Shown piece after piece: positions 3,276 to 32,534 of a DNA stretch of 32,534 bases. The translations under genes were made by a program, and so were the position numbers. Each line of letters opens with the position of its first letter. The stretch's first letter is position 1. This DNA comes from Lachnospiraceae bacterium (lineage in GTDB: Bacteria > Bacillota > Clostridia > Lachnospirales > Lachnospiraceae): assembly GCA_024692885.1 (NCBI GenBank), contig JAILLZ010000007.1:1-32534 (forward strand), in the 5' to 3' direction. Under the pieces are notes generated by a model. That model did not search any database and was not told where the DNA came from. It was given only the letters and a program-made list of their open reading frames with translations.

Positions 3276-3289
3276 AAATAATGCTCCTA

Positions 3290-5386: not shown

Positions 5387-5390
5387 AGAT

Positions 5391-8904: not shown

Positions 8905-8914
8905 AGCTGCCTCC

Positions 8915-9721: not shown

Positions 9722-9747
9722 CTGTTATTCTCCTTAAGTTGTATTAT

Positions 9748-11352: not shown

Positions 11353-11399
11353 ATCTTCTCCGTGTCCGTCCGAAATACTTATGTTAAACAAAAAGATGT

Positions 11400-12278: not shown

Positions 12279-12290
12279 AGGACATTCTCC

Positions 12291-13055: not shown

Positions 13056-13060
13056 ACAAA

Positions 13061-15559: not shown

Positions 15560-15565
15560 TCAATA

Positions 15566-16582
15566 TTACCTCGCTCTCTTATCTCCTTTTAAGAAGCTGA
15601 CCACGTCGGCTCTGTCCTTATCCTTTGAAGGTACAGTCGCATGTCTATTGTCAGTTTCGTTATCTTTCTTTTTACTGCCGTGTTCGGTGATTTTCCACGA
15701 TTTCAGCTTTGCTCTGTCCTTGTCCTTCACAGGCCTGGCTGCGCTTCTCATGTCGGATTCCGTATCCTTCGTAATATCATGCTCACCGATTTTCCATAAA
15801 CGCTGCGTTGCTCTGGCACTGTTCCACTCCGGGAAAGGATCGTTGGCGCGACTGTTCGGGTCGCTCCTTTTTTTATTCCAATCCACTATGTTCCACGGTT
15901 TCTTCACCATGTCGGCATTCGGTGTGGTGAGTGCAATCATTTCTCTGTAGGCTATGGTGGTAACCTCTTTTAAAAGACCGCTCTGCTCTGCGTTCAGTTC
16001 TCCGTATTCCTTGCCGGTAACTATGCATCCGGTAAAGGCATAAAACCTTATAAACTCGGTCTCTGTGAGAGTATCAGCAAATCCCGCTGAAGATGAGCTA
16101 ACTCTCGATACAGCTAAAATCAAAGGAAGAACCATCTCTGTTCCAAGCTGCAGAGGGTCCACCTTATCTATTCCCACATATCTTTCCACCTGAAGAGTAA
16201 AACGCCTTGTAATCGGCTTTCTTTTCAGGATTACGTAATCGTTTCGTCCGCCTTCCTGAATCTCTTCAAAATCATTTTCCTTTGTAAAAGCTCTTACGGA
16301 TCTGCACGGAGCATCAAAAACTCCTTCTACTCTCAGGAAAAAATTGAATGAAGGCGCAGGCTCTCTGTTATAGTTCCAAAAATAATCCGTAGTGAGAAGA
16401 TTTGAAAACCAGTCTGATGCCCCGGATCCTGTCTCTTCCTGATACCCGTAATTTCTGACTGACTCTGCCCTGGTGTCATCTTTAGAAACGGTTCTGCCGT
16501 CAGTGGTAGTGGCAATGTCCTTGTATTTCGGTGCATTTATAACGGATTTATTTGATTGTTGATTCTTGTTCTCATCCGCCAT
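15566..16582 (-). CDS. second gp19-like tube/tail protein (Pvc5-like) with C-terminal repeat extension
   Basis: 338 aa: YFWNYNREPAPSFNFFLRVEGVFDAPCRSVRAFTKENDFEEIQEGGRNDYVILKRKPITRRFTLQVERYVGIDKVDPLQLGTEMVLPL, a tail-tube-like fold signature. RBS AAAGGAG. Confidence 0.72.
   Translation of the reverse strand: MADENKNQQSNKSVINAPKYKDIATTTDGRTVSKDDTRAESVRNYGYQEETGSGASDWFSNLLTTDYFWNYNREPAPSFNFFLRVEGVFDAPCRSVRAFTKENDFEEIQEGGRNDYVILKRKPITRRFTLQVERYVGIDKVDPLQLGTEMVLPLILAVSRVSSSSAGFADTLTETEFIRFYAFTGCIVTGKEYGELNAEQSGLLKEVTTIAYREMIALTTPNADMVKKPWNIVDWNKKRSDPNSRANDPFPEWNSARATQRLWKIGEHDITKDTESDMRSAARPVKDKDRAKLKSWKITEHGSKKKDNETDNRHATVPSKDKDRADVVSFLKGDKRAR
15600..15896 (-). repeat. three approx. 33-aa tandem units at the C-terminus of the tube-like protein
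   Basis: WNIVDWNKKRSDPNSRANDPFPEWNSARATQRL / WKIGEHDITKDTESDMRSAARPVKDKDRAKLKS / WKITEHGSKKKDNETDNRHATVPSKDKDRADVVSF. DNA of the last two copies is offset 99-102 bp (ctctgtcctt at 15610 and 15712; gattttcca at 15689 and 15788). Confidence 0.8.
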
Positions 16583-16595
16583 AGTTTCTCCTTTA

Positions 16596-16778
16596 CTACA
16601 AGCGTCGTCCGCTCATTTCCGTGATACTCTTTTCCCTGCTTTCTCTGGAGGGTGAAAGCTCCTTGTTGATGGAGGATATTTCGCTGCACCATCGTCTGCG
16701 GTCCACATGCGGCAGTCCTGCTACCTCATCCTCCCCCCAATGGAAGTAATATGAGATGAATGCCATCTCACGGTACAT
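16596..16778 (-). CDS. small DUF6760-like protein (Pvc6-like position)
   Basis: 60 aa: MYREMAFISYYFHWGEDEVAGLPHVDRRRWCSEISSINKEL, resembling the small conserved 'YHFHW..EEV..L.H.ERRRW..EI..IN' protein of CIS clusters. Confidence 0.75.
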   Translation of the reverse strand: MYREMAFISYYFHWGEDEVAGLPHVDRRRWCSEISSINKELSPSRESREKSITEMSGRRL

Positions 16779-16798
16779 CTCATCCTTTGGGTAAAGCT

Positions 16799-17161
16799 TT
16801 AACCCTCCTCTGTAAAATTTAATGGCACCTCAAATGTCTTTCCGCAGTCCGGACATACAGCCGTAATCTTCGGTGGTTCGACATCGTTTATTCTCTGGTA
16901 CATGTCCTGGAGAAATGCCAAATCAGCCGTAAACAGTTTTTCTATGTGGGTGGCGGTTATAACCTCCACACCTTCCAAATCTGTTATGACCTTGGAAAGC
17001 ACTACTATCGTAAGATAAGACGGATTGGACAACACTCTCGGGTCTCTGGTTGCTGAGATTTCGTCACCTGCTGTGGCAAGTCTCATATGACCTTTTCTGT
17101 GAACGTTGCCTTCCTTGTCTACATACCCCTTTGGTAAAGTAAATTCATATACTGTCTCCAT
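16799..17161 (-). CDS. tail-assembly-chaperone-like small protein with CxxC motif
   Basis: 120 aa: EFTLPKGYVDKEGNVHRKGHMRLATAGDEISATRDPRVLSNPSYLTIVVLSKVITDLEGVEVITATHIEKLFTADLAFLQDMYQRINDVEPPKITAVCPDCGKTFEVPL. Confidence 0.7.
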   Translation of the reverse strand: METVYEFTLPKGYVDKEGNVHRKGHMRLATAGDEISATRDPRVLSNPSYLTIVVLSKVITDLEGVEVITATHIEKLFTADLAFLQDMYQRINDVEPPKITAVCPDCGKTFEVPLNFTEEG

Positions 17162-17196
17162 ATTTTCCCCTTTCCCTCTCTAAAAATCTCTGGCAA

Positions 17197-17220
17197 TCCG
17201 GGGAGAAATATCTCCCCGGA
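17197..17220 (-). promoter_or_regulatory. perfect 10-bp GC-rich RNA hairpin immediately 3' of the tube gene
   Basis: Minus strand TCCGGGGAGA-TATT-TCTCCCCGGA, 14 nt after the tube gene stop; followed by TTGCCAGAGATTTTTAG, i.e. no immediate U-tract. Confidence 0.75.
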
Positions 17221-17233
17221 AGAACACAAACTT

Positions 17234-17734
17234 TTAGTTCGGTATAACGAGCTCCTCATATGCAAGTTCAACGCTCTCAATAGCAACGTCAGATGTCTTT
17301 GCATCAAGATCCGGTGCATTGTACTTGGTTACCCATGCATTTGTGAGAATCCATACACGATCACCTGTTACTGTTTCAGAAACCTGTGAAGGTGCCTCAG
17401 CGTTTATATCGATAAGCTCTATTGTGACATTTGAACGAGGTATCTGTCCTCTTCTCTCACTTACACACTCACGAATCCACTCTTTGAATGTGGAATCCAT
17501 TGTGTAGCCCATCTTTAATGTTACATTACCGTGTTTAACAAGTCCCGGTAACTTTACAGGTGCAAGGCTGTTTGCATTGCCCTGACGGAACTCAATTACA
17601 TCAATTGATGCCTCGATACCGGATACTTCAGAAAATGCTGCTGTACCTGCTACTCCATCCACATTGACGATGAAGTTCATCTTCGTCAACGGATAAGCCA
17701 GGCCATCATTAGTTTTATAAGGATCTGTAGCCAT
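17234..17734 (-). CDS. CIS inner tube protein (gp19-like, Pvc1-like)
   Basis: 166 aa: MATDPYKTNDGLAYPLTKMNFIVNVDGVAGTAAFSEVSGIEASIDVIEFRQGNANSLAPVKLPGLVKHGNVTLKMGYTMDSTFKEWI; canonical. RBS AAAGGAG. Confidence 0.95.
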   Translation of the reverse strand: MATDPYKTNDGLAYPLTKMNFIVNVDGVAGTAAFSEVSGIEASIDVIEFRQGNANSLAPVKLPGLVKHGNVTLKMGYTMDSTFKEWIRECVSERRGQIPRSNVTIELIDINAEAPSQVSETVTGDRVWILTNAWVTKYNAPDLDAKTSDVAIESVELAYEELVIPN

Positions 17735-17759
17735 TGCATTTGCTCCTTTCGTTACTCAA

Positions 17760-19460
17760 TTATTCCTCGGTTCCGCCGCCGGCTTCGGCAGTGTGCTGTG
17801 TTACACGGAAGATTACGAACTCTGCCGGACGTGAAGGTGCAATACCGATATTGCAGATCAGGCGGCCATTCATAATGTCATCCTTCGACATTGTGGAAGC
17901 TCCTATTTCAACAAAATATGCCTCGCTTGGCGAAGATCCTGCCAACATGCCGTTTCTCCAAAGAGTATCTAAGAATCCTGATACAGTCATATTTACTCTC
18001 TGCCACAAAGCAGCATCGTTCGGCTCGAATACTACCCAGTTTGTAGCAGTCCTGATAGACTCCTCAACGAAGATGAAAAGTCTTCTGACATTGACATACT
18101 TGAATGCCGAATTTGTGCTGGCTGTGCGTGCGCCCCAAACTCTGATTCCCTGTCCAGGAAGTGCGCGAATGAGGTTGATGCCCTCAGGGTTTAAGATATC
18201 CTGCTCGTCCTTGGTGTAATTTACTGAAAGACCTGTACAGAATACAGCTTCATTTGCCGGAGCTTTGTGTACACCACGATTGATATCTGTCCTTGAGTAG
18301 ATTCCCATTACAGCTCCTGAAGGAGGAATGTATGCAGACTTGTTTGAAGCTCTGTCAAATACCTCGATCCAAGGATGATACATTGCTGCATATGTTGAAT
18401 CTATAATGCTTCGATAATTAATGAGTTCCTCAGGCTTTGTCATATCCTTCGGCATATCAAAAACTGCGAAACGGTTTTTAAGGTTCTCACAATGACCAAC
18501 CAGAGCAACTACTACTTCAGGCATAGTAACGCCCGGAACTGCGATCATGCTGATGTTGTCATTCTCTACGAATGATGCGATACCGGTTCTGTTTCCAGGT
18601 CCGTTATCCTCACCGATGAATGTTCCCGCATTAACTTTTCCGATGCTTCCGTCACTTCCGCCGTCAAGAGTAACAACACCTGCTGTTAAGCCTTCACCAA
18701 GGATTGCCTCAACAGGGTTTCCTGCTTCCTTAAGCTGATCGACTTTTATCTTTACGAGTTCACTCTTTGCCATTCTCGCATCGATGTAGTTTGGAGATGT
18801 CGGGTTGAAGTTAACCTCTGCATAGTTCTCAACCTCATCACCAGCTCTAACGCTGACATTTACTGTAACGAGATAAAGAACTGTCTTTGGAATAACTCCG
18901 TCATCAACAACTGATGCTGCAAAGTCTTTTTCGAAGGTGATTGTATCTTCGTAAATGGTAGCTATACGGTTGTACTCGCCATTCACTTCTACGATATCTC
19001 CCTCGCGGAATCCATCTGCACTTTTTGCTATATATCCGCTACCGCTCTCTGCGATAAGCTGTAATTTTCTTTTCTCCACCGTATCGAGAGAAATCTGAAT
19101 ACGGTTGCCCCATTTACCTTCGTTAGCTGCTTCCACCGTAAGAATTCCTGCTTTAGCGGTAGCTTTCTTAGCATCGTTAGGAATAACGCGGGCTATAAAG
19201 CATCTTGTTCCACCGTTTGCAAAGAACTGCTCAACGCTGTTTGCCAGATAACGATATTCACCGTGGGTAAACTCGCTTAAAAATCCGCCGTACTGACGTT
19301 TAAAGCTCTTTATATCAGTGACAAGCTGCGGTGCTCCCTTTACGGGACCTTTCTCGGCAAGTCCAACAAATCCTGCTGTACTTGTTCCTACGCCTTCGAT
19401 AGATCTGGGCGAATTATCATATTCCTCAACATATACGCCCGGTGATAAATATTCAGCCAT
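17760..19460 (-). CDS. contractile tail sheath protein
   Basis: MAEYLSPGVYVEEYDNSPRSIEGVGTSTAGFVGLAEKGP...YIPPSGAVMGIYSRTDINRGVHKAPANEA...INLIRALPGQGIRVWGARTAS...YVNVRRLFIFVEESIRTATNWVVFEPNDAALWQRV. ATG at 19460 with AAAGGAGATAGTA upstream preferred over the GTG at 19490. Confidence 0.97.
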   Translation of the reverse strand: MAEYLSPGVYVEEYDNSPRSIEGVGTSTAGFVGLAEKGPVKGAPQLVTDIKSFKRQYGGFLSEFTHGEYRYLANSVEQFFANGGTRCFIARVIPNDAKKATAKAGILTVEAANEGKWGNRIQISLDTVEKRKLQLIAESGSGYIAKSADGFREGDIVEVNGEYNRIATIYEDTITFEKDFAASVVDDGVIPKTVLYLVTVNVSVRAGDEVENYAEVNFNPTSPNYIDARMAKSELVKIKVDQLKEAGNPVEAILGEGLTAGVVTLDGGSDGSIGKVNAGTFIGEDNGPGNRTGIASFVENDNISMIAVPGVTMPEVVVALVGHCENLKNRFAVFDMPKDMTKPEELINYRSIIDSTYAAMYHPWIEVFDRASNKSAYIPPSGAVMGIYSRTDINRGVHKAPANEAVFCTGLSVNYTKDEQDILNPEGINLIRALPGQGIRVWGARTASTNSAFKYVNVRRLFIFVEESIRTATNWVVFEPNDAALWQRVNMTVSGFLDTLWRNGMLAGSSPSEAYFVEIGASTMSKDDIMNGRLICNIGIAPSRPAEFVIFRVTQHTAEAGGGTEE

Positions 19461-19497
19461 TACTATCTCCTTTCTTTGGGCCTTTGCCACTTAATTC

Positions 19498-19878
19498 TCA
19501 ATTAACCTCGGTTTGACCGGGATATGTGATGGATATCACTCCACCATACATGCACATACAGGTGCATTCATTGGAAAGACATGGGTTTCCTCCCGCAAGT
19601 GTCTTTGCCTTATTCCCCGGTATCCACGCCGTTGTTGCGGGCACACAGGGCTGCGGTGTCAAAACACCCAGTGCCGCTGCTGTTGCTGCCGCCACCTGTG
19701 GATTTGCGGGATTTTTGCACATTCCCATGGTCGGTATATTAACCATAGGTCTTGCATCCTGTATCGTAGCAACCGGCTTCCCCTTTATCAGGAACTTCTG
19801 CTGGCTTGTAACCATAAGTTGTCCGCCCACATCTCCGAAAGGGCACATAAGCTTTGCGGTTGCTGTTACATAACTCAA
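19498..19878 (-). CDS. PAAR-like (DUF4280-type) spike tip protein, Cys-rich
   Basis: 126 aa: SYVTATAKLMCPFGDVGGQLMVTSQQKFLIKGKPVATIQDARPMVNIPTMGMCKNPANPQVAAATAAALGVLTPQPCVPATTAWIPGNKAKTLAGGNPCLSNECTCMCMYGGVISITYPGQ. Start codon is TTG (GAGAAGACTTGAGTTATG), overlapping the upstream TGA. Confidence 0.85.
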   Translation of the reverse strand: MSYVTATAKLMCPFGDVGGQLMVTSQQKFLIKGKPVATIQDARPMVNIPTMGMCKNPANPQVAAATAAALGVLTPQPCVPATTAWIPGNKAKTLAGGNPCLSNECTCMCMYGGVISITYPGQTEVN

Positions 19879-20663
19879 GTCTTCTCCACCTCCTCACGAT
19901 CAACCGGATTCTCGAATTTCTTTGCTTTTTGAAGCATCTCATGGGTCATCTCGTTAAAATCGCCTTTGATGTAATACCAGCAGCCGTCTTTCAGGTATCT
20001 CAGGATCACCGGTGTTTCCGGTGCCTGTCTCCTCATGGCGATTCGATACGTTCCCCCTTCTTCCACATTTCCGAATACAATTCTGCAAATCGGCGCATTT
20101 ACCGAAAACGGTTCTTTCAGCGGATATCTGAGCTTCATCTTTTTTGCATCGATGTTTTTTTCTATCTCGATATGTTCAAATGTCTCTTCCTGCGCATGCA
20201 GGATTCCATAATGCACATCTTCAAGATATCTGCTGCCCTCCATCTGAAATACGCTCATCTCCTGACGCCTTGCATTGTAGTCGCTTATGCAGCATCTGGG
20301 TTTTGTAAGCCCTATTGCCTCTATCTCGGAAAGCTTTGGAATCCTCCCGGTAATCTCTACAGTATTCAAGTTTACCAGGCTTCTTCCGTCCGGTATGAGA
20401 TAGACGATTGCCAACGGCTCGTTTTCATTCATAAGCTCGTATCTGATTTTTGTTGTCACCGGATAATACCCACGAACCTTTGTGAGAAGATCAAAATCCT
20501 CTCTGCCGGTATCCAGAAGAATGAATGTGCCCTCTCCCCTCTTTTCCGGTCTGATTGGTTCTCCGTTCCTAAAGAAATTAATATCTCTTTCCGGAACAGC
20601 ACGTCCGTTAGTGGTATCTACCAGCGAGATAACCAAATCGAGCTTGTAGGAAATGATCGACAC
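19875..20663 (-). CDS. unknown beta-rich protein encoded between cap and PAAR genes
   Basis: 262 aa; N-terminus MSIISYKLDLVISLVDTTNGRAVPERDINFFRNGEPIRPEKRGEGTFILLDTGREDFDLLTKVRGYYP looks like a beta-sandwich/carboxypeptidase-regulatory-type domain. GTG start after GGAGG. Confidence 0.65.
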   Translation of the reverse strand: MSIISYKLDLVISLVDTTNGRAVPERDINFFRNGEPIRPEKRGEGTFILLDTGREDFDLLTKVRGYYPVTTKIRYELMNENEPLAIVYLIPDGRSLVNLNTVEITGRIPKLSEIEAIGLTKPRCCISDYNARRQEMSVFQMEGSRYLEDVHYGILHAQEETFEHIEIEKNIDAKKMKLRYPLKEPFSVNAPICRIVFGNVEEGGTYRIAMRRQAPETPVILRYLKDGCWYYIKGDFNEMTHEMLQKAKKFENPVDREEVEKT

Positions 20664-20666
20664 CCT

Positions 20667-21269
20667 TTATTGACCTCCTTCCATATCCTGCTCTCCGGTT
20701 ACATGCAGTCCAAACTGTGCTTCCGTTACGCGTGGCGTATCGATAACAACTTCACTCGACAGGAATACGGGTGCTGCTTTATAAAACAGGCTTATCTGAT
20801 ACGGCTTATTGATTGCCTGCCACACCCTGACCTTTTCCTCAAGGCTTATCTTCGCTTGAGACAGCACTATCGGGGGCTCCTGTGTATCGAGCCAGGACTG
20901 CAACTGGTTCGGCAGCACCGAGGAATTGTCATTCACTATCTGCGCCGCCTTACCTATTATCTTTTGTACATCCGGGTCTTTGAGGCCCATCTGGCCTCCC
21001 CCGTTTATAAAAAGCATGTAGTAAAGACCGTAAGGTCTCGGAGGTTTCTGTAACTGCACCCTGCCTTTTCTAATTGTTGGGGGCAAAGCTACATTCATCT
21101 CCTCCCTGATATCGTAAAGGTACAATCCCACGATATAGTCGACGTCCTGCGACGCCGGGGATGAGATTTCGATGTTGTTCGGAGACGGAATCGGTTCCGG
21201 ACACATCTTTTCTCTCAGTACCTTGCATATGTAATTGCTCACATCCGAAATGATGGGATAATCTGCCAT
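20667..21269 (-). CDS. DUF4255/Pvc16-like CIS cap protein
   Basis: 200 aa: YPIISDVSNYICKVLREKMCPEPIPSPNNIEISSPASQDVDYIVGLYLYDIREEMN...RPYGLYYMLFINGG...LEEKVRVWQAINKPYQISLFYKAAPVFLSSE; typical of Pvc16 N-domain proteins. Confidence 0.88.
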   Translation of the reverse strand: MADYPIISDVSNYICKVLREKMCPEPIPSPNNIEISSPASQDVDYIVGLYLYDIREEMNVALPPTIRKGRVQLQKPPRPYGLYYMLFINGGGQMGLKDPDVQKIIGKAAQIVNDNSSVLPNQLQSWLDTQEPPIVLSQAKISLEEKVRVWQAINKPYQISLFYKAAPVFLSSEVVIDTPRVTEAQFGLHVTGEQDMEGGQ

Positions 21270-21278
21270 AATATCACC

Positions 21279-24200
21279 TTAACTGTTGTTTAAAAATGCT
21301 ATGAACTCCAATGCTCTTGCCTTAACATCCGATGTCACGCAAACAGCTATCTGTGTCTGTGGAATCGGCTCCTCCTCACAACTGAAGTAGGTTAAAGCAT
21401 CTTTCTCTCTTATGTAAGTCACGGTCTGTCTCACTGCCTTACCTGTCAGCGAACGTCTCTGTCCGTCTGCGTTCTTAACGACATCGCTTCCAGACAAAAA
21501 CGTGAGATTGCTTCCGTTTCCGGTCATTGTTGTCTCTTCCGTGCTTCCATAGTAAATGTATCTGTATATTGTCACATCACCTATGGCTTTCAGGCTTACA
21601 TATTCCGTATTTCTGTCTGCCATATATTGATCGTAAAGATAAAACAGATCATTCAAATGTGCTCTGGCCACCTGTGCCGCATAAGCACCGGCCACTGTGT
21701 TTCCATCATTTCCCAACATGGAAAACGCTGTAATCACCGCTGCGAGATCCTCGTCTGAAAGTGATGACAACGGACCTCCGAAGAAATCATCCAAAGCCGC
21801 ATCCAATCCGTTCACGGAATACAAATCTATTCCGTTTCCGGTTCCACCATCATCAGCATCTGCTGCAGCTTTATCCAATATGTTTTTCATCAAAGCGTTG
21901 TTGCCGCTGTCTTCTCCCGAACCGCTTCCGCTTCCTGAACTACTTCCGCTTCCTGAGCCGCTTCCGCTTCCCGTTCCACTTCCGCTTCCCGAGCCACTTC
22001 CGTCTCCCGTTCCACTTCCGCTTCCCGTTCCACTTCCGCTTCCTGAGCCACTTCCGTCTCCTGAGCCACTTCCGTCTCCCGTTCCACTTCCGCTTCCTGA
22101 GCCACTTCCGTCTCCTGTTCCACTTCCGCTTCCCGAGCCACTTCCGTCTCCTGTTCCACTTCCGCTTCCCGAGCTGCTTCCGCTTCCTGAGCCACTTCCG
22201 TCTCCCGTTCCACTTCCGCTTCCTGAGCCACTTCCGTCTCCCGTTCCACTTCCGCTTCCCGAGCTGCTTCCGCTTCCTGAGCCACTTCCGCTTCCCGAAC
22301 CGCTTCCGCTTCCTGAACCGCCGCTCATTGAAGAGAGCTTATCCTGAAGCTTTGCGAGTGCATCCTTTGCTCCAAGTGCCGCCAGTCCGGATACAGCTGC
22401 TTCCAGCTTTGTGGTATCTCCGCCTCCAAGGGCTGATACCGCTGAATTGTAAAGTGAATCTATAAGTTTATCCTCACCTGCACCCATGGCTGCTCTCGCC
22501 TGTTCCTTTTCTCTGGTGGATGCATTTTCGGAATTCAAAATTGCATTGAGCTTATCTGTCTCGTCCGTTATTTTTTTCTTTACTTCCTCGATTTCGGCTT
22601 CCTTCTGTTTAGCTCCCTGAAGGTCGTTATTATCGAGGCAGCCCTGCTTTTCCTCCTCAAGCTCGTTCATCTCACTCTGAAGGTTTTGCAGGTCACTTCT
22701 TAAGCTTTCATTCTCTGCGAGTATCTGTTCAACCACATCCCTGAGCCACTCTATATGCTCGTCGTTCACTATGGTGCAGTTGGCCTTCGCATTGTCTATC
22801 TTTATCCAATCGTAAAGTTCTGTCGTCCAATCTATCCTGTCAAATATAAAATCCAGTGCTTCCGCCGGTTCCATACGTTTGCGTTTGGCATCTATCAAAA
22901 ATTCAAGTTCGGACCTGGCAGCTTCCATATCGTCATACTGCGCCGTCAGATATGACTCAGCCGCAACCGCTCCCGATGATCTGAGTGCCGTAGTGTATTC
23001 CTCGGAAACACCTGACGAAATTGCACTTTTGTATAATGTGTCCGCTTCCGGAAGAAATACGCTCTCAATCCTTGTATACTCGGATGACTGGTTTGCTATC
23101 AATCCATCACGGATGTTATACAAATCCATGAGTCCGTCCACCGCATCCTTTGAGGAGGATTCTATAACCGACATACTGAAGTCATATTCGTATCTTCCCA
23201 GTATGGTTTCTCCGTCTTCTATGAGTGAATTTGACAAGTGATCGTAATATGCGTTTGAAGCGCTCTCTTCGGCACTTGAAAAACCTTCTGTCTCTGAGAT
23301 TGAGGTTACAAATGTTCCGCTGTAAAAACCGACACCCTCAAGAAGCTTATCTCCCAAAGGAGTCATCAAAGCTTCAGGCTCCTGGATGAGTTGTCTGAAT
23401 ACCTCGGCTCGTCTTGTGGAATCCACTTTTCCCATAAGGTTGTAAACAACCTCAGCTCTCTCATTGTCCCCATTTGCCATCAGAGAATTGTATAATTCCT
23501 GAAGAGTTGCCAACCTGCTGTCACAAAGATCTGTCAGATCGTTATGAACATCATTGTCAAAGAAATCGTAAAATGCATTGTATACGTAGGTGTCCATATC
23601 CACGGATCGCTCCGCGTTATCCCCTTCTTCGTAGATATCTCCGCCGCCAAAAAGGCTTCTGATTCCCGATACAACCCTCTGTCCTCTCATCTTTAGGAAG
23701 TCCGCAAGCGAAGGTTCCTCTGCGTTTTCGTCCCCTGCATAAGCTTTTCTCAAAGCCGACAATTCAGGCAAATGATACAAATCATAAGGATCCGGATCGT
23801 CGAATCCGCCAACCACGGAACCCGTCTTTGCATCCAGCATCACACCATCCGCTCCGACTACCTTTGTGATGTAGAGTTCCGCCAACTCTTCCTCTGTGGC
23901 TGCAACTCCACTTTCAGGTCCCAAATCCTTAAGCCCTGCTGCATCGGTGATGTTTCTCCATGCACCGCCTGCCAGTTCCGAATAATAGTATCTCGTGGTC
24001 TGTTCAGACTCCGATGCGCTCTCATCAGCCTCTGCAAAAAGGTCGTCCGTCAAAGCCGAAAGAGCAATCAGATAAGTTCCGATAAACAGGGTGGAATTCT
24101 CTATATCATGGGTTGCCCTGTAATCCTTGTACTTTATTGCAGTTGAGGGATCAAAGGCTGCAAATGATCTCAACTGGGGAACAGCTATGATTCCCAGGAT

Positions 24201-24308
24201 TAGGGTTGCCACAAGTACAAGAGCGGCCAAGAGCTTATCAAAGCCCTTTTTATTCTTTTTTATCCTATACCTCGTATCCTTACGAACCTTGTAATCCTTG
24301 TCCCCCAT
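21279..24308 (-). CDS. membrane-anchored coiled-coil protein with Gly/Ser/Asp/Thr repeat linker
   Basis: N-terminal basic cytoplasmic tail then TM (KLLAALVLVATLILGIIAVPQL); large helical ectodomain, coiled coil (LAENESLRSDLQNLQSEMNELEEEKQG...), GSGSGSGTGD repeat, C-terminal domain. ATG at 24308 with AGAGGG upstream preferred over TTG at 24329. Confidence 0.8.
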   Translation of the reverse strand: MGDKDYKVRKDTRYRIKKNKKGFDKLLAALVLVATLILGIIAVPQLRSFAAFDPSTAIKYKDYRATHDIENSTLFIGTYLIALSALTDDLFAEADESASESEQTTRYYYSELAGGAWRNITDAAGLKDLGPESGVAATEEELAELYITKVVGADGVMLDAKTGSVVGGFDDPDPYDLYHLPELSALRKAYAGDENAEEPSLADFLKMRGQRVVSGIRSLFGGGDIYEEGDNAERSVDMDTYVYNAFYDFFDNDVHNDLTDLCDSRLATLQELYNSLMANGDNERAEVVYNLMGKVDSTRRAEVFRQLIQEPEALMTPLGDKLLEGVGFYSGTFVTSISETEGFSSAEESASNAYYDHLSNSLIEDGETILGRYEYDFSMSVIESSSKDAVDGLMDLYNIRDGLIANQSSEYTRIESVFLPEADTLYKSAISSGVSEEYTTALRSSGAVAAESYLTAQYDDMEAARSELEFLIDAKRKRMEPAEALDFIFDRIDWTTELYDWIKIDNAKANCTIVNDEHIEWLRDVVEQILAENESLRSDLQNLQSEMNELEEEKQGCLDNNDLQGAKQKEAEIEEVKKKITDETDKLNAILNSENASTREKEQARAAMGAGEDKLIDSLYNSAVSALGGGDTTKLEAAVSGLAALGAKDALAKLQDKLSSMSGGSGSGSGSGSGSGSGSGSSSGSGSGTGDGSGSGSGSGTGDGSGSGSGSSSGSGSGTGDGSGSGSGSGTGDGSGSGSGSGTGDGSGSGDGSGSGSGSGTGSGSGTGDGSGSGSGSGTGSGSGSGSGSSSGSGSGSGEDSGNNALMKNILDKAAADADDGGTGNGIDLYSVNGLDAALDDFFGGPLSSLSDEDLAAVITAFSMLGNDGNTVAGAYAAQVARAHLNDLFYLYDQYMADRNTEYVSLKAIGDVTIYRYIYYGSTEETTMTGNGSNLTFLSGSDVVKNADGQRRSLTGKAVRQTVTYIREKDALTYFSCEEEPIPQTQIAVCVTSDVKARALEFIAFLNNS
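21916..22323 (-). repeat. approx. 400-bp low-complexity tandem repeat (GTGDGSGSGSGS-type, 36-bp unit on a 6-bp base period)
   Basis: Encodes GSGSGSGSGSGSGSSSGSGSGTGDGSGSGSGSGTGDGSGSGSG...; alternating CCACTTCCGTCTCC/CGTTCCACTTCCGCTTCC blocks on the plus strand. Confidence 0.95.
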
Positions 24309-24349
24309 ATCATTCCCTCTGACTGTCAAAGAAAATCATCAGTTCATTT

Positions 24350-24409: not shown

Positions 24410-26611
24410 CTACTCAGTTTGTTTTATTATTGCTCTGGCGTAGATGTCCGCCTTGGCATCATAAAGGTAATTCTTATCTGCGTCATAGCATTTGATTACG
24501 ACCTGATCTATGGACTCCTCCAATGCTTTCGGATATCTTATTCCTTCATCCACACCACATAACTCTTCAGAAATCAAAGCATGTCCATCTGCATCATATA
24601 CCACGAAATATTTCATGTTTTCTATGGCATTCGGTATAAGCTTAAATGTGACGGTCGTGTCATCCGAATTTTCTGTAAGTTCATAGCTTCCGACCTGATT
24701 TGGAAGTTCCGTTGTTCCCTCGTATGCAGGTATCAAAAGTTCACCCTGAAGTATTCCCGGATCTATCTCGCAATCTGCTATGAATGTATCTCCGTCGTAA
24801 AGTCTTATGATTACTTTTTCAACGTTGGCGGTAGCCGTCATAAGATGTGTTATGACACTGTCTGAAGCTGTTCTCTCGCCAACTTTTGTTCCGTCGCACC
24901 AAAGTTCGAAATCCGTAATGTTGTATTTGAAATCTTCAGGAACACTTATTCCCAAATCAAATACCAGGGTCTCATACTTCGGAACAATGTAATATGAGGC
25001 TCCCGAAATGTTATTTGCCACTACGAGCTGAGTCCCGAATTCATTTCCGAAATCTTCTCCGGTGAGTATCTTATCCAATGCTCCGCAGGTCAAACGGTTA
25101 AAGCTGTTTACATTCTGGCTGAAGGTAGTAAGTGCATCGAGTTCCTGTAGCTGTAAATCCTCGTAGGCATCAAGGATTGAATTGTATTCTGCTGCATCTA
25201 TCTCACCGAGCCTGTACTGTATTCCCGACTCCTTGTAGCCCTCTTCCTTATCCTGTCTCTGTTCCTGCAAAAGCGTGTATGTATTTCTAAGGCCAATGTA
25301 GGTATTGAATGCGTCTTCAACTTCGTCCTCTTTGTCGGACTCGGCGATCTTAAGCTCTGTCGTAGTGTTGTAATATTCTAAGATAGTGTCGTAAAGTGCA
25401 TTTGGGTCATCCTGCATATACCACGATCCGTCAGCTTTTCCTTTGAAAAGGGTCTTTGCAAAGCTGAATCTGATCGGCCAGATACCTATCTTGTAACTGC
25501 CTTCCCAATATCTGTCGATAGCCTTGAGAAACTGCTTGTTAGCCTGTTTCAGTTTTGTTTTGTTTATGGTCTTTCCTGCTACTACCGAATTATAGTATGG
25601 GGCAATTATAGCCATGTCCCCGGATTTCATATTGCTGCTTATTGCACTGTAGACCGTTGTAACATCAATGTAAGCAAGACTTTTGTTCGCTCTGCTTTCA
25701 TAGATTTCCGAATCGTTATCCAACGTATGTTGTTTAAGATACTTAAGGTCTTTTCTGTCCAGCTTATTTATGATATCCGTGGTGTAAGGTACCAAAAGCT
25801 TATAGTCGGAAAGTGTAGGGTCCGAAACATTGCCGTAATCATCCACAAAACCCACCAGCTTGGCTAACTTTTTACATGCCGCATTCGTAGAGCTTATGGT
25901 GGAAACTATCTTTGACTCTATGTCCTTTACTCCCTGCTCCGCCTCTTTTAAGTCAGCATCGTTTTTTTCTCCGGTAGCCACCATTGCCGCCACCTTAGCC
26001 TTCTTATCTTTTGCGATAAGCAGTCTTTCCTCATCCATTTCTATGGATTGACGCCCTTTATATATGGTGATATAGAGGTCTGTCACCTTCTCATTCAAAT
26101 CGAGTTTGAGCGCCTCTATCTCTTTTTTGGTTTCTCTTACCTCCTCCAATGCTTCCATAGGTTCATAGGTTGTCTCCCTTATTTCCTCAAAAGTGAGGTC
26201 CCTAGGAAAATCCATTGAAAAAAGGAATCTCCAGTGAAAATGTTTTACGTATTCTCTTTTTATCGCTGCGGACTTTACTTTGTTCTCATACTCGGCCTGT
26301 TTTTTTTCAAGCTTTTCGTTGAGATCGTCCAGTTTCACGCTTGTGGCATAGGCCAGCTTTTTTGCAGCATCCAAAGTGAGTGTCTTTGAAGGTACATGCT
26401 TTGATTCCGAACTCTCGGAAGTAGCAGTCGAGTTCGTTGCATCTCCCCAGCCACTGCCTGTACCCTGCTCTGAAGGCACATCAACGGTAACTGCTTTGGA
26501 TCTTCCCCCGGAAAAAAACACTATGACGCCGGCAAGAAGAAATGCTGTCGCGATAAACGCTTTCCACGGTATTCTTTTCTTTCTGATTCTTCTTACCTTG
26601 CGATCATTCAT
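24410..26611 (-). CDS. membrane-anchored TolC-like (outer-membrane-efflux-like) coiled-coil protein
   Basis: N-terminal TM (RIPWKAFIATAFLLAGVIVFFSGG); TLTLDAAKKLAYATSVKLDDLNEKLEKKQAEYENKVKSAAIKRE...ALKLDLNEKVTDLYITIYKGRQSIEMDEERLLIAKDKKAKVAAMVATGEKNDADLKEAEQGVKDIESKI...LRNTYTLLQEQRQDKEEGYKESGIQYRLGEIDAAEYNSILDAYEDLQLQELDALTTFSQNVNSFNRLTCG matches the TolC helical-hairpin pattern. ATG at 26611 with AAGGGG upstream. Confidence 0.65.
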   Translation of the reverse strand: MNDRKVRRIRKKRIPWKAFIATAFLLAGVIVFFSGGRSKAVTVDVPSEQGTGSGWGDATNSTATSESSESKHVPSKTLTLDAAKKLAYATSVKLDDLNEKLEKKQAEYENKVKSAAIKREYVKHFHWRFLFSMDFPRDLTFEEIRETTYEPMEALEEVRETKKEIEALKLDLNEKVTDLYITIYKGRQSIEMDEERLLIAKDKKAKVAAMVATGEKNDADLKEAEQGVKDIESKIVSTISSTNAACKKLAKLVGFVDDYGNVSDPTLSDYKLLVPYTTDIINKLDRKDLKYLKQHTLDNDSEIYESRANKSLAYIDVTTVYSAISSNMKSGDMAIIAPYYNSVVAGKTINKTKLKQANKQFLKAIDRYWEGSYKIGIWPIRFSFAKTLFKGKADGSWYMQDDPNALYDTILEYYNTTTELKIAESDKEDEVEDAFNTYIGLRNTYTLLQEQRQDKEEGYKESGIQYRLGEIDAAEYNSILDAYEDLQLQELDALTTFSQNVNSFNRLTCGALDKILTGEDFGNEFGTQLVVANNISGASYYIVPKYETLVFDLGISVPEDFKYNITDFELWCDGTKVGERTASDSVITHLMTATANVEKVIIRLYDGDTFIADCEIDPGILQGELLIPAYEGTTELPNQVGSYELTENSDDTTVTFKLIPNAIENMKYFVVYDADGHALISEELCGVDEGIRYPKALEESIDQVVIKCYDADKNYLYDAKADIYARAIIKQTE

Positions 26612-26612
26612 A

Positions 26613-27851
26613 CTATGAATCCCCTTCATCCATAGACGATATAAAATACATATCAAAACCGCTGCCACCGGAATCTCTTGTCAAAAACGAATAAACAAGT
26701 CCGTTCTTTTCAAATGAATACAAGTAAACCGGATAATTGTACGTGTAGGAATTTACCGTTATCAAATCCTGAAGTTCCGTAACCACGTCCATCTCAGGTG
26801 CCCCTGAATATACGGATTTCAGTTTTGACATCTCATATATGCCCACAAGTTCCGGATATGTGGCATAGGAATCACCCTGATAAGAAGGATTTCCCAGCAC
26901 TTCTTTTATATCCGAAACCGAACTGCACACATTGTTGCCAAATTTGATGTAGTCCCTAAGGACATATATCTCTTTTATTGTTGAAGCATCTCCGATTTCC
27001 TCATTATCCACCGGAATCGAATAAATAACATCTATATCGGAAAGATATACTCCCATGTATTTGGATCCGCTGTAAACCTTGCGGTGTCCTACATATGCGC
27101 TTGCAAGCTCCGAGGTCTGCATTCCGACCATCTGGCTGTAAGCTATATCATCAGCTGCAAATGTTCCTGTGAATGCCATGTTTCCGGAAGTGTCGTAAAG
27201 CATTCCTGTGCCTTCCTTCATTCCGGCAACAAATTCTCCCTCATATTCCATGGCGCCGCTCTCACGAAACAGCTTTCCGTTGCCGCTAAAAAGGTTTTCA
27301 TGAAAATTACCGGTGTATTTAACTACCTCTCCCGGATAATAGAGTGTGCCGTTTCCCTCATACTTGCTCTTATCAAATGAGCCAATGTAGACCTTGTTGC
27401 CATCTCTGTCAAACAAAGTTCCGTAACCGCTCACGTAGCCCTTCTCGACATTTCCTTCATATGCCAAATATCCACCCTTACCCTTAATCCTTACAGTGCC
27501 AGACTGAATTCTAAGCATGGCGGATGTGTATTTGTATGTCTTAATGCCGTCGGCACTGCTGAAGGAACCGAAAGGCGCTCGCACCATCACTATGTACAAA
27601 AGCGAAACCGATCCGAGTATCACTACTACGGCAAACGCCAGTTTCTTAGATACCATCCAGTTTCCGATTGTATAGTAGTCATTCTTATGCTGTGGTTTGA
27701 TGTCCAGGAGCTTTACAAAGAATTCCCTGACCTTTGTAAATACCCTTGTCCTCAAATAAGAAAGACTGGTATACATCCGGAGTTTGGTGACGATTGGCAT
27801 TATTCTGGATTTAATTGCATTAACGATTACTGAAAAAAAACCCTGATTCAT
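26613..27851 (-). CDS. membrane-anchored MORN-repeat protein
   Basis: 412 aa; TM (LAFAVVVILGSVSLLYIVMV) followed by MORN repeats. Confidence 0.85.
   Translation of the reverse strand: MNQGFFSVIVNAIKSRIMPIVTKLRMYTSLSYLRTRVFTKVREFFVKLLDIKPQHKNDYYTIGNWMVSKKLAFAVVVILGSVSLLYIVMVRAPFGSFSSADGIKTYKYTSAMLRIQSGTVRIKGKGGYLAYEGNVEKGYVSGYGTLFDRDGNKVYIGSFDKSKYEGNGTLYYPGEVVKYTGNFHENLFSGNGKLFRESGAMEYEGEFVAGMKEGTGMLYDTSGNMAFTGTFAADDIAYSQMVGMQTSELASAYVGHRKVYSGSKYMGVYLSDIDVIYSIPVDNEEIGDASTIKEIYVLRDYIKFGNNVCSSVSDIKEVLGNPSYQGDSYATYPELVGIYEMSKLKSVYSGAPEMDVVTELQDLITVNSYTYNYPVYLYSFEKNGLVYSFLTRDSGGSGFDMYFISSMDEGDS
27160..27470 (-). repeat. MORN repeats within the 412-aa protein
   Basis: YEGNVEKGYVSGYGTLFDRDGNKVYIGSFDKSKYEGNGTLYYPGEVVKYTGNFHENLFSGNGKLFRESGAMEYEGEFVAGMKEGTGMLYDTSGNMAFTGTF: four to five about 23-aa YxGxFxxxxxxGxGxL units. 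Confidence 0.88.
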
Positions 27852-27862
27852 CTAATCACCCG

Positions 27863-30181
27863 TCAATCCATATGCAATCTTAAAAGTTCTTCAGCCGGAC
27901 CCTGATTCAATAATCTCTCACTCTCGAAGAGATACCATTTTACAAGTGCGTCCTTAGGCACTTCCTTCAAAATCTCCGAAAACAAATTTCTCGCAAGATA
28001 GAAATTTGAAGATTTAAAGCTTTCCATTGCCTTGCTGTATTTTTCCAGATTCTCTTTCTTGCCGTTCCTGATGCTTACAGGATTTGCGGCCAAAACTTCA
28101 TAGAGATCCAGTTTTATTTCGCCTTCGCGGATATATCCCACGTAACGAAGTCCATCGGAAATGCCCTCGTGTCTCTTCACACTCTCGGTAATGCAAAGGC
28201 AAAGACCAAGTTTTCTGAGCCACATCGAGTATTTCTCCAAAAGAGCTGATTCTTCCGAATACAAAAATGCTATGCTCTGAAGACTTGTTCCGGCCACCCC
28301 GTATCTAAACTGTCCAAAATGCAGCACCACTCCGGCTCTCGGGCTTCCCGGCCAGACGTTACTCTCCTCGTGGCAGAAATCAATTCCAAACGGAAGGACC
28401 TGTTCCTTCTCCTTGAACACTATTTTCACCAGGCCGACACTCATATCACTTGATACAAGGACACCTCCGCTTTTTTCCTGGTGTTTTTCCATAATTGAAA
28501 GAAGCCTGTTCATGTCGGAAATATTGTCAAGCATTCTCATTTGCTCATCTGCCACTGACAAAATGGCTTCTGTTCCGTTAAATTCCGCCACATCCCCGAC
28601 TTCCACTTCAGCGATTGAAGTCTTGTCCAGGATGGTCTCTATCTTTTTTGGGGCAAATCTGAAATATGCCTCATATACCTGATATGCGGTGTAATTCATT
28701 CTTCTGAATGCCATCGCTATCTCGCCCAATGCTTCCCAATGTTTGGCTATGCGATATGGTTTGTTCTCCGGTATTACAACTTCCTCTCCGCTTCCCTTTG
28801 ACACTTCACCCATCGTATCCGAAAGCTGATGTAATGCTCTGTATTCAAAGAAGCTCTTTACCGAGAATATAATGGCAAATATGAGAAGAGCCACTCCTAA
28901 AAATAACCAGACCCTTAACATATCCCAGATATTTATCTCTTCCAGCTTGTAAAGCCCTGCCAAAACGTACGGAACCTGATTGTCCCCTTCTTTCATGGAG
29001 ATTACCGACACGGCATATCTTTCTCCGCGATAACGTATCACGCCATGTGCACTCTTGTCAGAGACAGCCTTCATACAAAGCTTTTCAAATTCGCTGCCGT
29101 AAAGATCTTCGCAGCTCATATTGTTTCGTCCTCTCTTTGAGGCTACAGTTTCAAGGTTGCCGTCGATAACCAATGTATCCCAAAGAGATCCCGACAGGCT
29201 TGTCTTTAAGGAATCATAGTTGTCATCTAAAGTGAGTTCATCGGCAACCTTATCTTTAAGTGCATCCAAATAACCGTCCATAAATGACAAGGTGGCCTGC
29301 TCCGTCTCCCTTAACCCTCTCAAATGTCCCGGAACACCGGTAAGGGAAAGCAGAACTGCCATTCCGCAAATGCATAGAATGGCTACTGAAATAAACGGAT
29401 GTCTGTTGCAAAGGATGATTAGTGCAAGAATAGCTATCGCACCTGTTGCCAAAAGAACCAGAAATACAGTTGTTACCGTAGGAAAAGCATGCATTCGGTT
29501 TATAAATCCGATGCTTGCGGATAAATATGCGTTCTTAGCAGTTTCATCTATCTTGAAGTATTCCCCCGGTGCTTCTTTATCTGTCCAAATATTGAGGACA
29601 CCACCCCTGTAAACTGCTTCGAGATAAATTGAACCATCGGTGGATTTCTTCTCAAATATCTGCTTTGGAGTTTCTGTCTCCTCGTTTTCATTCGAAAACT
29701 CATGTATTACAGAACTCTCGATACTGAAAATGTATGCGCCTGAACCATCCTCCTCCACGACACCTATATAGAATTCCCCCGCCTCCTCTGAAGCGGATGA
29801 AACTCTGGTGTCTTCCGGAAGACTGAAAGCTGAAGATTGTTTCATTGGATTAAGATTGGCATCAAAAAGAACGAGAACATGATATCCCCCTGTGGCAGCG
29901 ACAATCATCGGGCCTTCTTTCCATGTTCCAATGTACTCAAAGGCAGATAATCCCAGTGTCTCAGCGCTGGTTAAGACATCTAATTTGTTCTCTGTAAATT
30001 TGTAAGCAGAGGAGCCATTGCTCCTTTGATCAATCACATATGACACTTCATCTGATGAACAGCCACCAAGATATGCACCCTTTCTTTCCGATGAATCCAT
30101 GGAAAGAAGTACCCCCTGCATAATGCATAAAATTGCGACAATCCAAACGATCAGCGCCAATATCAGCATTCTTCTTTTCAT
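27863..30181 (-). CDS. multi-TM sensor-like protein with degenerate class III adenylate-cyclase-like C-terminus
   Basis: 772 aa, about four TM segments (LILALIVWIVAILCIMQGVL; VTTVFLVLLATGAIAILALIIL; FISVAILCICGMAVLLSLTGV; LRVWLFLGVALLIFAIIFSV), HAMP-like linker, then FRFAPKKIETILDKTSIAEVEVGD...LDLYEVLAANPVSIRNGKKENLEKYSKAMESFKSSNFYLARNLFSEILKEVPKDALVKWYL, which resembles the flanks of class III cyclase domains. Confidence 0.65.
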   Translation of the reverse strand: MKRRMLILALIVWIVAILCIMQGVLLSMDSSERKGAYLGGCSSDEVSYVIDQRSNGSSAYKFTENKLDVLTSAETLGLSAFEYIGTWKEGPMIVAATGGYHVLVLFDANLNPMKQSSAFSLPEDTRVSSASEEAGEFYIGVVEEDGSGAYIFSIESSVIHEFSNENEETETPKQIFEKKSTDGSIYLEAVYRGGVLNIWTDKEAPGEYFKIDETAKNAYLSASIGFINRMHAFPTVTTVFLVLLATGAIAILALIILCNRHPFISVAILCICGMAVLLSLTGVPGHLRGLRETEQATLSFMDGYLDALKDKVADELTLDDNYDSLKTSLSGSLWDTLVIDGNLETVASKRGRNNMSCEDLYGSEFEKLCMKAVSDKSAHGVIRYRGERYAVSVISMKEGDNQVPYVLAGLYKLEEINIWDMLRVWLFLGVALLIFAIIFSVKSFFEYRALHQLSDTMGEVSKGSGEEVVIPENKPYRIAKHWEALGEIAMAFRRMNYTAYQVYEAYFRFAPKKIETILDKTSIAEVEVGDVAEFNGTEAILSVADEQMRMLDNISDMNRLLSIMEKHQEKSGGVLVSSDMSVGLVKIVFKEKEQVLPFGIDFCHEESNVWPGSPRAGVVLHFGQFRYGVAGTSLQSIAFLYSEESALLEKYSMWLRKLGLCLCITESVKRHEGISDGLRYVGYIREGEIKLDLYEVLAANPVSIRNGKKENLEKYSKAMESFKSSNFYLARNLFSEILKEVPKDALVKWYLFESERLLNQGPAEELLRLHMD

Positions 30182-30195
30182 ATAGTTTATCTCTG

Positions 30196-31041
30196 CTATT
30201 TAGATAGATTCTCCGTTCCTATAACCTTAAAATGGTTATACAGGAAGGAAAGCCACAACACGTCTCCAAATATAATCTGAGAAATCAGTGATAAAAGTGC
30301 TATTACAACCAGTATCACGGATATACGCAACAGTATTGCAAATATCCTGTCGCGATTTCTCATATACACATTTTTTATCTTGGCAAGGATTCCTCTCTTT
30401 TCTTTAGGAACCGCTGCAATCCTTATATCCCTGTACAGCTCGCTGAACCTCGAATAGCTCCGATTGGCCATCTTTCTGGTTATCAACTGATAGCTTATTG
30501 TCTTGTCGGAAGACTGAGGTTCCAGGATATCTCGGATAATGTTGGCACAGGCATATACGCATTCCGCCTCACCATGGTCCAGGTCGAACTCCTTCAAATC
30601 TATCTCATATCCGAAGAAGATTTCATCATCCACATCTATGTTTACCTGACGCTGCTTGAGTATCAGATATAGCAGCTGCCATGGTATATGGGAACCTATG
30701 CAGGTCACCAGTATATTCATTGCGATGTCCTCGCATCTGGTGAGGCTGTACGCATCCCCCATATAAAAACTGTCGATGGGTCTGGCCTGTTTGTATGGGA
30801 AGACCATCATAAGGTCTCCCTCGGAGATAAAGGTATCCACGATTCTTTCTGCCGCTGTGTCCGATGTTTCCTCAAGAAGCTTCAGAAGATGCTTCACTAT
30901 CGAGTGATCGTGCACACAGAGCACGGTGTAAAGATCGTTTGCAGACGAGCGAAGGTCACGACAAACATAAACATCGTTTTTTTCGCCTTTTAAAGATACC
31001 TTTACAACCAGAAGCTGCTGTCTGGCAGATTCAAACGTCAT
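30196..31041 (-). CDS. pseudokinase-like protein with C-terminal TM
   Basis: 281 aa; FISEGDLMMVFPYKQARPIDSF (hinge-like), RCEDIAMNILVTCIGSHIPWQLLYLILKQRQVNIDVDDEIFFGYEIDLKEFD (alpha-E and catalytic-loop-like without HRD/DFG), then basic segment and TM ILLRISVILVVIALLSLISQIIF. Confidence 0.5.
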   Translation of the reverse strand: MTFESARQQLLVVKVSLKGEKNDVYVCRDLRSSANDLYTVLCVHDHSIVKHLLKLLEETSDTAAERIVDTFISEGDLMMVFPYKQARPIDSFYMGDAYSLTRCEDIAMNILVTCIGSHIPWQLLYLILKQRQVNIDVDDEIFFGYEIDLKEFDLDHGEAECVYACANIIRDILEPQSSDKTISYQLITRKMANRSYSRFSELYRDIRIAAVPKEKRGILAKIKNVYMRNRDRIFAILLRISVILVVIALLSLISQIIFGDVLWLSFLYNHFKVIGTENLSK

Positions 31042-32534
31042 TCATTATCCCCATTGAAATCTTTTTTCTTTACGATGGCGTATGCATAAGTTGAAATCAT
31101 CGGCATATCCGTGCAGTAAATCCTGATTTCATATACGCCTTCCTTGGAAGGTGCCGTGTAGATACCGTCTGCAGATATCTCACCGCTTCCCGGTTCTGTA
31201 AGCTCGTATGAAATGGATGCCGGCTCCATATTGTGATATGAGATACCGAAATAATGATTCTCCTTGACTCCCATAACGAAGGTAGGTGTCTCAGCTGAAA
31301 TACTCTGATTTTTGTCGGCACGTACCTTTTTGGTATCCGTTCCCGAAGGGAATCTGATGGCTACCCAACGATATGTCAGCACCAGAAGATCCGCATCCTC
31401 CAAAAGCTGTGCAGCAACCACGAAACTTCCTTTATCATTCAGCACTTTCACGGCAGTCTCTGCCTTGGCTGCACCGGCCTGATTGAACAGACGGGAGTTG
31501 CCGTAGATTGTGCTCTTTGCATTCTGTCCCAAAGACTCGTCCTCAGAGAGATACTCGTATCCCACTTCCACATATACATTTCCGTTTCCGAGTCCGTGTA
31601 CTATCTCTCCGGAATAACAGATATCTCCTTCTCTTGCATCCATCCCGAGAGGTATCTCAACTATACCTGTAGCGTATTCGATACCGTTTGAAACAGGAGC
31701 CGCACTTTCCGTCACCGGAGAAGGAGCTGCTACGACATTTACATCTCTGATATCAACATCCTTCTTAAAGAACTCGAGTAAATCTCCTCGTTTCAAATCG
31801 TCCGAAGGAGCGGAAATGTATTTTTTGACGTTCTTTTCTTTTACTTCTTCTATTACATAAGCGCTGTCGGTTCTAACAAGACGAAGTTCGGCAAGCGGAA
31901 TATAATCTCCTGCTCCTCCCACTGAACGCATCTCGAGAGACATCTGTCCAAGGCGCTTATTTACAAGTTTTAATGGGGAAATATCTTCCAGGGAAATCCT
32001 GACTGAAAAATTGCTGTCAACCGGAATCTCCGTGCCATCTTCGCTTCCCACTGCCGAACGGGATTGAAGGATGACATTGGTCTCAACGGCATCTGTATTT
32101 AAAACCTTGAGCCAGTATTCAAGATTGCATACTTCACCTCTTGAAAGGTGGAGGTCCTTGACATCAATGGCTACATCATGGCCGCCTGCTGCGGTCTCAA
32201 AACCAGGCACCTGAAGTACACCGTGATAATCCAAATCCACATCGACGTTGCTTCGTTTGGTAATCTTCACGATGATTTTTACATTCTGGCCCTTGCACAC
32301 TGTTCCGGGCATGATTACTTCGCCGGAATAATTGCTTGTTGTAAACAGATTTTCGCGAGTCAGAAGCTCGCTCTCCATTTCAAAAGGTTTCTCCAGCTCA
32401 GCTGTATCGACGAGATACAGTTCGTATCCCTCCGTGATCCTGTTGTATTCGTATTCTTTGTCCGTATCCGAATGAATCGGTGAATATACGGTATGTGCAG
32501 GTTTCTCGCTGTAACGAAGGCAAAGCGTTACATC
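31038..32534 (-). CDS. Ig/BIG-like domain protein, N-terminus beyond right window edge
   Basis: ORF track starts at 32378, but the frame is open to 32534 (DVTLCLRYSEKPAHTVYSPIHSDTDKEYEYNRITEGYELYLVDTAELEKPFEMESELL...). C-terminus ISYELTEPGSGEISADGIYTAPSKEGVYEIRIYCTD is a bacterial Ig-like domain. Confidence 0.75.
   Translation of the reverse strand, partial: DVTLCLRYSEKPAHTVYSPIHSDTDKEYEYNRITEGYELYLVDTAELEKPFEMESELLTRENLFTTSNYSGEVIMPGTVCKGQNVKIIVKITKRSNVDVDLDYHGVLQVPGFETAAGGHDVAIDVKDLHLSRGEVCNLEYWLKVLNTDAVETNVILQSRSAVGSEDGTEIPVDSNFSVRISLEDISPLKLVNKRLGQMSLEMRSVGGAGDYIPLAELRLVRTDSAYVIEEVKEKNVKKYISAPSDDLKRGDLLEFFKKDVDIRDVNVVAAPSPVTESAAPVSNGIEYATGIVEIPLGMDAREGDICYSGEIVHGLGNGNVYVEVGYEYLSEDESLGQNAKSTIYGNSRLFNQAGAAKAETAVKVLNDKGSFVVAAQLLEDADLLVLTYRWVAIRFPSGTDTKKVRADKNQSISAETPTFVMGVKENHYFGISYHNMEPASISYELTEPGSGEISADGIYTAPSKEGVYEIRIYCTDMPMISTYAYAIVKKKDFNGDNE

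Follow-up and report, generated by a model that had tools for sequence, protein, structure and literature searches.

A predicted class III cyclase pseudoenzyme encoded in a conserved CIS operon of Clostridia

The locus and its genes

The window analyzed here (32,534 nucleotides) is the whole of one contig, C19, in the draft genome (81% complete) of a Lachnospiraceae bacterium. It carries a minus-strand operon for a contractile injection system (CIS), a phage-tail-like injection machine, and the gene of interest, termed CYC, lies within it (Table 1). Genes recognized by Pfam included those for sheath, gp19-type tube, CIS_tube, Phage_base_V spike, gp25, baseplate J, tail I, Pvc16_N, and a DUF4280/PAAR-like protein; the operon is thus a genuine CIS, and these genes, together with the conserved gene order, bore out the initial annotation, which had placed CYC in a CIS operon. 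No defense family was matched by PADLOC. CYC is separated by 14 bases from the upstream gene (p281) and by 11 bases from the downstream MORN gene.

Table 1. Features of the window and of the CYC protein
Feature	Residues	Position	Strand	Basis
p498, conserved module protein, N-terminus beyond contig		31038..32534	-	Homology, gene order
p281, predicted pseudokinase, C-terminal TM helix; in group A always adjoins CYC		30196..31041	-	AF2, Foldseek, motifs, order
CYC, whole gene, 772 aa, four-TM, predicted class III cyclase-like pseudoenzyme domain		27863..30181	-	ORF, translation, homologues, AF2 model
CYC TM1	6-24			Hydropathy, AF2 helices
CYC ectodomain 1, all-beta	37-210	29552..30073	-	AF2 secondary structure
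CYC TM2 + TM3 hairpin	about 234-285	29327..29482	-	Hydropathy, AF2 helices
CYC ectodomain 2, mixed alpha/beta, Cache-like by position	286-417	28931..29326	-	AF2
CYC TM4 + HAMP-like linker	418-505	28667..28930	-	Hydropathy, AF2
CYC conserved transducer segment, YFRFAPKKIE...VEVGD	506-530	28592..28666	-	Inside most conserved stretch, 476-530 (46 group A sequences)
CYC cyclase-like pseudo-catalytic domain, six of six catalytic positions replaced	531-697	28091..28591	-	Foldseek PDB, profile to CyaB/bPAC, residue tables
CYC TPR-like helical tail	698-760	27902..28090	-	AF2 helices, conservation, weak TPR matches in relatives
MORN-repeat protein, N-terminal TM region, conserved module gene		26613..27851	-	Pfam MORN 1.5e-8, gene order
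OEP/TolC-like protein, N-terminal TM region		24410..26668	-	Pfam OEP 5.9e-5, gene order
SG, long protein, N-terminal TM region, Ser-Gly-rich linker, module gene		21279..24329	-	Translation, gene order
Pvc16_N, CIS marker in association test		20667..21269	-	Pfam 2.5e-26
CIS structural genes: p262, PAAR-like, sheath, tube, tube-like and coiled-coil proteins, CIS_tube, spike, gp25, baseplate J, tail I		2178..20663	-	Pfam, conserved order
STAS anti-sigma-factor-antagonist-like protein, in CIS operon		1836..2135	-	NCBIfam TIGR00377 8e-19, Pfam STAS 5.5e-18

The initial annotation gave the interval 28100-30181, which identified the same gene but cut 237 bases from the true open reading frame, and with them nearly the whole of the C-terminal flank that it quoted. 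The translation contained all three of the strings it quoted: FAPKK...VEVGD (residues 509-530; window 28592-28657), EAILSVADEQ (residues 538-547; window 28541-28570), and LYEVL...VPKDA (residues 693-745; window 27947-28105). Hydropathy predicted four TM segments and two extracytoplasmic stretches, and the latter, also seen in the AlphaFold2 (AF2) model, agreed with the two extracytoplasmic regions originally described. A HAMP-like linker had been described as well; AF2 helices were found at the HAMP position, but the Pfam HAMP family was recognized only in relatives of the window protein. Weak Cache matches for ectodomain 2 were likewise found in relatives only.

The neighboring protein p281 was modeled by AF2 with a pLDDT of 83.5, and Foldseek matched it to PknB (4eqm; E 8.7e-7), indicating a kinase fold. 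The motif at beta 3, LYTVLCV, is without Lys, and no recognizable HRD motif or Asp was found in the catalytic-loop region. A long hydrophobic helix lies at the C-terminus (residues 230-258). Since p281 has a kinase fold lacking the Lys and the HRD Asp, the gene for a predicted pseudokinase adjoins that for a predicted pseudo-cyclase.

Several other features of these loci deserve mention. The OEP/TolC-like protein sits in the CIS operon of what is presumably a single-membrane bacterium, where it may span the cell wall. The linker of the SG protein is a Ser-Gly-(Thr/Asp) repeat that differs in length between relatives. STAS and SpoIIE-phosphatase genes were observed in or near several CIS loci (window 1836-2135, L012:1191-2996, L018:7546-9234, L062, L063, L068, L167, and L176, the last on contig C17 of the window's own genome, G000), and may make up a partner-switching control module. 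Contig C17, which probably continues the CIS locus of the window, carries a dCache-SpoIIE gene, an ORF resembling the SpoIIE/HATPase protein of L068, an AAA gene, and a fragment of another. MFS-type proteins were also encoded near CIS loci (L167:1541-4585, minus strand; L059:16061-18976, plus; L015:14917-17001, minus; L053:3-1637, plus), some of them fused to a Cache/propeller-like ectodomain of the same kind as that of receptor cyclases. Two of these, in L059 and L167, were considered as intact cyclases near CIS loci and rejected, being ectodomain-MFS fusions.

Cyclase fold and catalytic residues

No Pfam or NCBIfam family was matched by the window CYC alone. A search of 98 related genomes recovered eight CYC homologues, the relatives being Lachnospiraceae; three of the eight passed the Pfam cut-off for Guanylate_cyc (L006, L008, L011) and five that for HAMP (L006, L007, L008, L010, L011), and pairwise matches join the window protein to these relatives. 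In L008, whose FTDIRSFT motif is intact, the alignment with the window protein spans residues 415-751. Eight CIS-linked domains, one of them from the window, gave a profile that matched solved class III cyclases (CyaB, 3.4e-12; bPAC, 5.7e-12), and the group A profile on its own found no PDB relative by sequence. The cyclase kinship of group A is visible through pairwise intermediates, the mixed profile, and the structural model, not through the group A profile alone.

The AF2 model, for which 45 homologues were used alongside the window protein, had a mean pLDDT of 86.2 and a pTM of 0.57, the latter making the relative placing of the domains uncertain. When the model was compared with the PDB by Foldseek, the top matches were class III cyclases (bPAC, E 5.5e-10, probability 1.00), with TM scores, normalized by target length, of about 0.6-0.7 for the isolated cyclase domains of bPAC, CyaB, Cya2, and CyaC. 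Residues 531-697 adopt a class III cyclase fold, as the initial annotation had proposed from the flanks of the domain.

It had further proposed that the cyclase was catalytically dead, with EAILSVADEQ in place of the metal-binding segment. Both proposals held: ILSVAD aligned opposite FTDIRSF of an intact relative, all six catalytic positions were replaced, and no intact residues were found at alternative positions. Compared with the intact G064 protein, the window CYC has S and G (or V, depending on the alignment) at the two metal-binding Asp, D or S at the base-specifying Lys, F at the base-binding Thr/Asp position, A at the transition-state Asn, and K at the transition-state Arg. Judged by these residues, CYC is predicted to be a dead cyclase.

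Placement of catalytic columns is imperfect at about 20% identity, and the counts that follow are subject to that error: among 69 CIS-linked proteins, none of the six catalytic residues was kept in 45, one in 22, and two in 2, and 12 non-CIS relatives kept five or six of the six. The replaced positions vary freely among CIS-linked copies (S, N, T, Q, and others at the first metal-binding Asp; F or Y at the base-binding site). Degenerate CIS-linked proteins were also found in a further Lachnospiraceae genome (G551) and in other Clostridia families (G643, G362, G592, G659). When a two-residue tolerance was allowed, one CIS-linked sequence, L149, showed all four key residues near their places, which we treated as noise. 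Non-CIS proteins of family f66 have intact catalytic residues; those of family f30, from genomes of about 1 Mb, keep most of them, with Lys for Arg and more losses in a few. The f30 cyclases in L157-L159, L161, and L164-L166 (genomes of 0.8-1.2 Mb) were without CIS linkage where looked at, and independent decay of this family is possible.

It is very improbable that nucleotide binding or product formation persists in this domain by means of the replacement residues: although the fold is kept under purifying selection (see below) and L149 shows the near-match just described, no replacement residues are conserved, the positions vary freely, and most of the best-conserved columns of CYC fall outside the cyclase-like core.

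Distribution, descent, and selection

A scan of genome contigs with the CYC protein as single query returned zero relatives. The A2 alignment has no stretch conserved enough for such a scan, and the neighboring Pvc16 was therefore used as query. Among the 80 loci collected in this way the order p498-p281-CYC-MORN-OEP-SG-Pvc16-p262-PAAR-sheath-tube recurred; CYC was seen in 48, including every locus in that collection that showed p281 or p498. In the group B layout, OEP and SG are absent and CYC is placed after the PAAR-like gene. Named carriers include Butyrivibrio and Pseudobutyrivibrio.

Association with CIS was examined in 299 Lachnospiraceae genomes, one per genus, counting pseudo-cyclase profile matches with E below 1e-38 as strong and Pvc16_N matches above the family's cut-off. 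Strong pseudo-cyclase matches occurred in 22 genomes and Pvc16_N in 24; the two occurred together in 20, against 1.8 expected (hypergeometric p about 3e-25). In 19 of these 20 both genes lay on one contig within 11 kb, and in the twentieth (G247) the pseudo-cyclase was on a contig carrying other module genes. Weaker profile matches were ordinary cyclases where examined. Four CIS genomes were without CYC: two lacked the whole membrane module (L067, L068), one was interrupted at a contig edge, and one was G215, in which p498-p281-MORN-OEP-SG were present, p281 was followed directly by MORN, and CYC was naturally absent (L069, G215:C22). Since this CIS keeps the rest of the module, CYC is not strictly essential. 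CYC also occurs in other Clostridia families and is a conserved membrane component of the CIS gene set.

In a maximum-likelihood tree of 43 domains, in which two rows (G125 and G281) had long branches, the CIS-linked sequences all fell on one side of a single branch (support 98/93); their nearest neighbors were three intact receptor cyclases outside CIS loci. The CIS-linked CYC thus share a common origin beside receptor cyclases. The intact relatives appear, from their sequences, to carry a larger NHL/propeller-like region.

Whole-gene dN/dS was calculated for twelve close pairs: nine were near 0.07-0.10, one was 0.10, and two were higher (0.56 and 0.32), the highest belonging to a pair with very low dS. 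Within close pairs the cyclase-like domain gave mostly 0.02-0.11 and the linker values below 0.09. Because dN/dS is low in most close pairs, we conclude that the dead cyclase-like domain is maintained by purifying selection. Decay of CYC as a pseudogene was rejected; the gene is intact, dN/dS is low in most close pairs, and the gene is kept across genera.

Proposed function and known systems

Conservation within CYC was measured in 46 group A sequences as the frequency of the commonest residue, averaged over each region. It was highest in the linker (476-530; 0.63), followed by the TPR-like tail (0.56) and the cyclase-like core (0.43), and lowest in the ectodomains (0.37). The conserved linker and tail point to docking or relay; for the tail, we infer docking from its conservation. 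Four group B-type loci encode a short pseudo-cyclase (open frames of 325-354 aa) without an ectodomain, three of them also without an N-terminal TM segment. In the same four loci a homologous sensor is joined to a SpoIIE phosphatase in a separate gene; in five other group B-type loci that sensor is fused to the pseudo-cyclase, and no SpoIIE gene was present in the stretch seen. Three of the four short forms make up one clade of the tree, and the loss of the ectodomain and the swap of the sensor were therefore counted as one event.

We lean towards the view that the clostridial CIS membrane module has recruited CYC, a class III cyclase pseudoenzyme, which would act there as a membrane adaptor or relay and not as an enzyme. 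On this view, CYC would dimerize like its ancestors, through its TM, HAMP-like, and cyclase-like domains, and would share the cytoplasmic membrane with the MORN, OEP, and SG proteins and the putative pseudokinase p281. Docking would fall to its linker and TPR-like tail, whose surface would keep the CIS or its regulators at the membrane or bring them there. In proteins that have ectodomains, an outside signal would travel through the HAMP-like linker to this docking surface as a change of conformation, instead of as cAMP. That CYC is missing from the CIS that lack the whole membrane module counts in favor of an adaptor or relay, as does the dispensability of the ectodomain where the cyclase-like part and tail are kept, which argues for such a role over that of an obligate sensor. 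Counting against it, the CIS of L069 does without CYC, and the nearby SpoIIE and STAS genes are equally compatible with a role in gene regulation. A wider and more tentative possibility is that the dead pseudo-cyclase and the pseudokinase form part of a platform that would dock clostridial CIS to the cytoplasmic membrane and would couple outside signals to recruitment or firing without a second messenger.

The initial annotation named CYC a candidate trigger for firing. In such a role, a signal from a target or from stress would be sensed by the ectodomains, and sheath contraction would be set off by the dead cyclase fold. The ectodomains themselves, the HAMP-like linker, and descent from receptor cyclases fit this explanation, as do the other sensor-type genes (ectodomain-MFS, sensor-SpoIIE) near CIS loci. 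Yet the ectodomains are the least conserved part of the protein, and one clade of CIS-linked copies has lost them; sensing therefore cannot be the universal core role, and we consider a firing trigger unlikely. Quite unlikely, in our judgment, is that CYC is no part of the machine and instead regulates expression of CIS genes through SpoIIE phosphatase and STAS partner-switching. Such control would account for the STAS gene in the operon, the presence of SpoIIE genes within or close to several CIS loci, and the fusion of the sensor domain to SpoIIE where the pseudo-cyclase is without it, but most group A loci are without SpoIIE within the stretch seen, CYC is embedded among the MORN, OEP, and SG membrane genes, and the sensor swap is a single evolutionary event.

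Full-text literature searches, of partial coverage, found no published description linking CIS with guanylate cyclase, pseudokinase, or Butyrivibrio; for CIS with Lachnospiraceae a cockroach-gut genome survey was the one match, and the word cyclase is absent from the main text of an eCIS survey (PMC8213781). The CIS-linked pseudo-cyclase is likely to be new. As an adaptor or relay, it would belong to a candidate platform that is conserved in Lachnospiraceae of the gut and rumen and in other Clostridia. It also offers a clean example of enzyme exaptation, with one clade in which every examined CIS-linked copy is predicted dead and with intact relatives outside CIS loci.

CYC has its fold and an upstream HAMP-like linker in common with class III nucleotidyl cyclases (PF00211; bPAC, CyaB, CyaC, Cya2) and their membrane-receptor forms, and its TPR-like tail in common with intact relatives; it differs from these cyclases in the replacement of every catalytic position and in its location in a CIS operon. 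Degenerate GGDEF/EAL receptors such as LapD, which contains a HAMP domain, and FimX bind c-di-GMP. They resemble what is proposed for CYC, a dead signaling-enzyme fold serving as receptor or relay, although the folds differ. For p281 the comparison is with EssB/YukC, the TM-anchored pseudokinase of type VIIb secretion in Firmicutes. Both would be TM-anchored pseudokinases of a Firmicutes secretion apparatus, but the secretion systems are unrelated and EssB was not among the p281 matches listed.

CisA is one published answer to the question of how Gram-positive CIS find their position and receive the command to fire. In Streptomyces coelicolor, contraction of the CIS depends on this membrane protein, which is bitopic; its cytoplasmic N-terminus is largely unstructured, and its C-terminal domain is periplasmic-binding-like (PMC12237407). 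CYC is set apart from this published description by its four TM segments and cyclase-like cytoplasmic domain, and the function of CisA rests on experiment whereas that of CYC is proposed here from computation. Both are membrane proteins conserved in CIS clusters and plausible adaptors between the CIS and the cytoplasmic membrane, and CisA is the nearest functional precedent for CYC.
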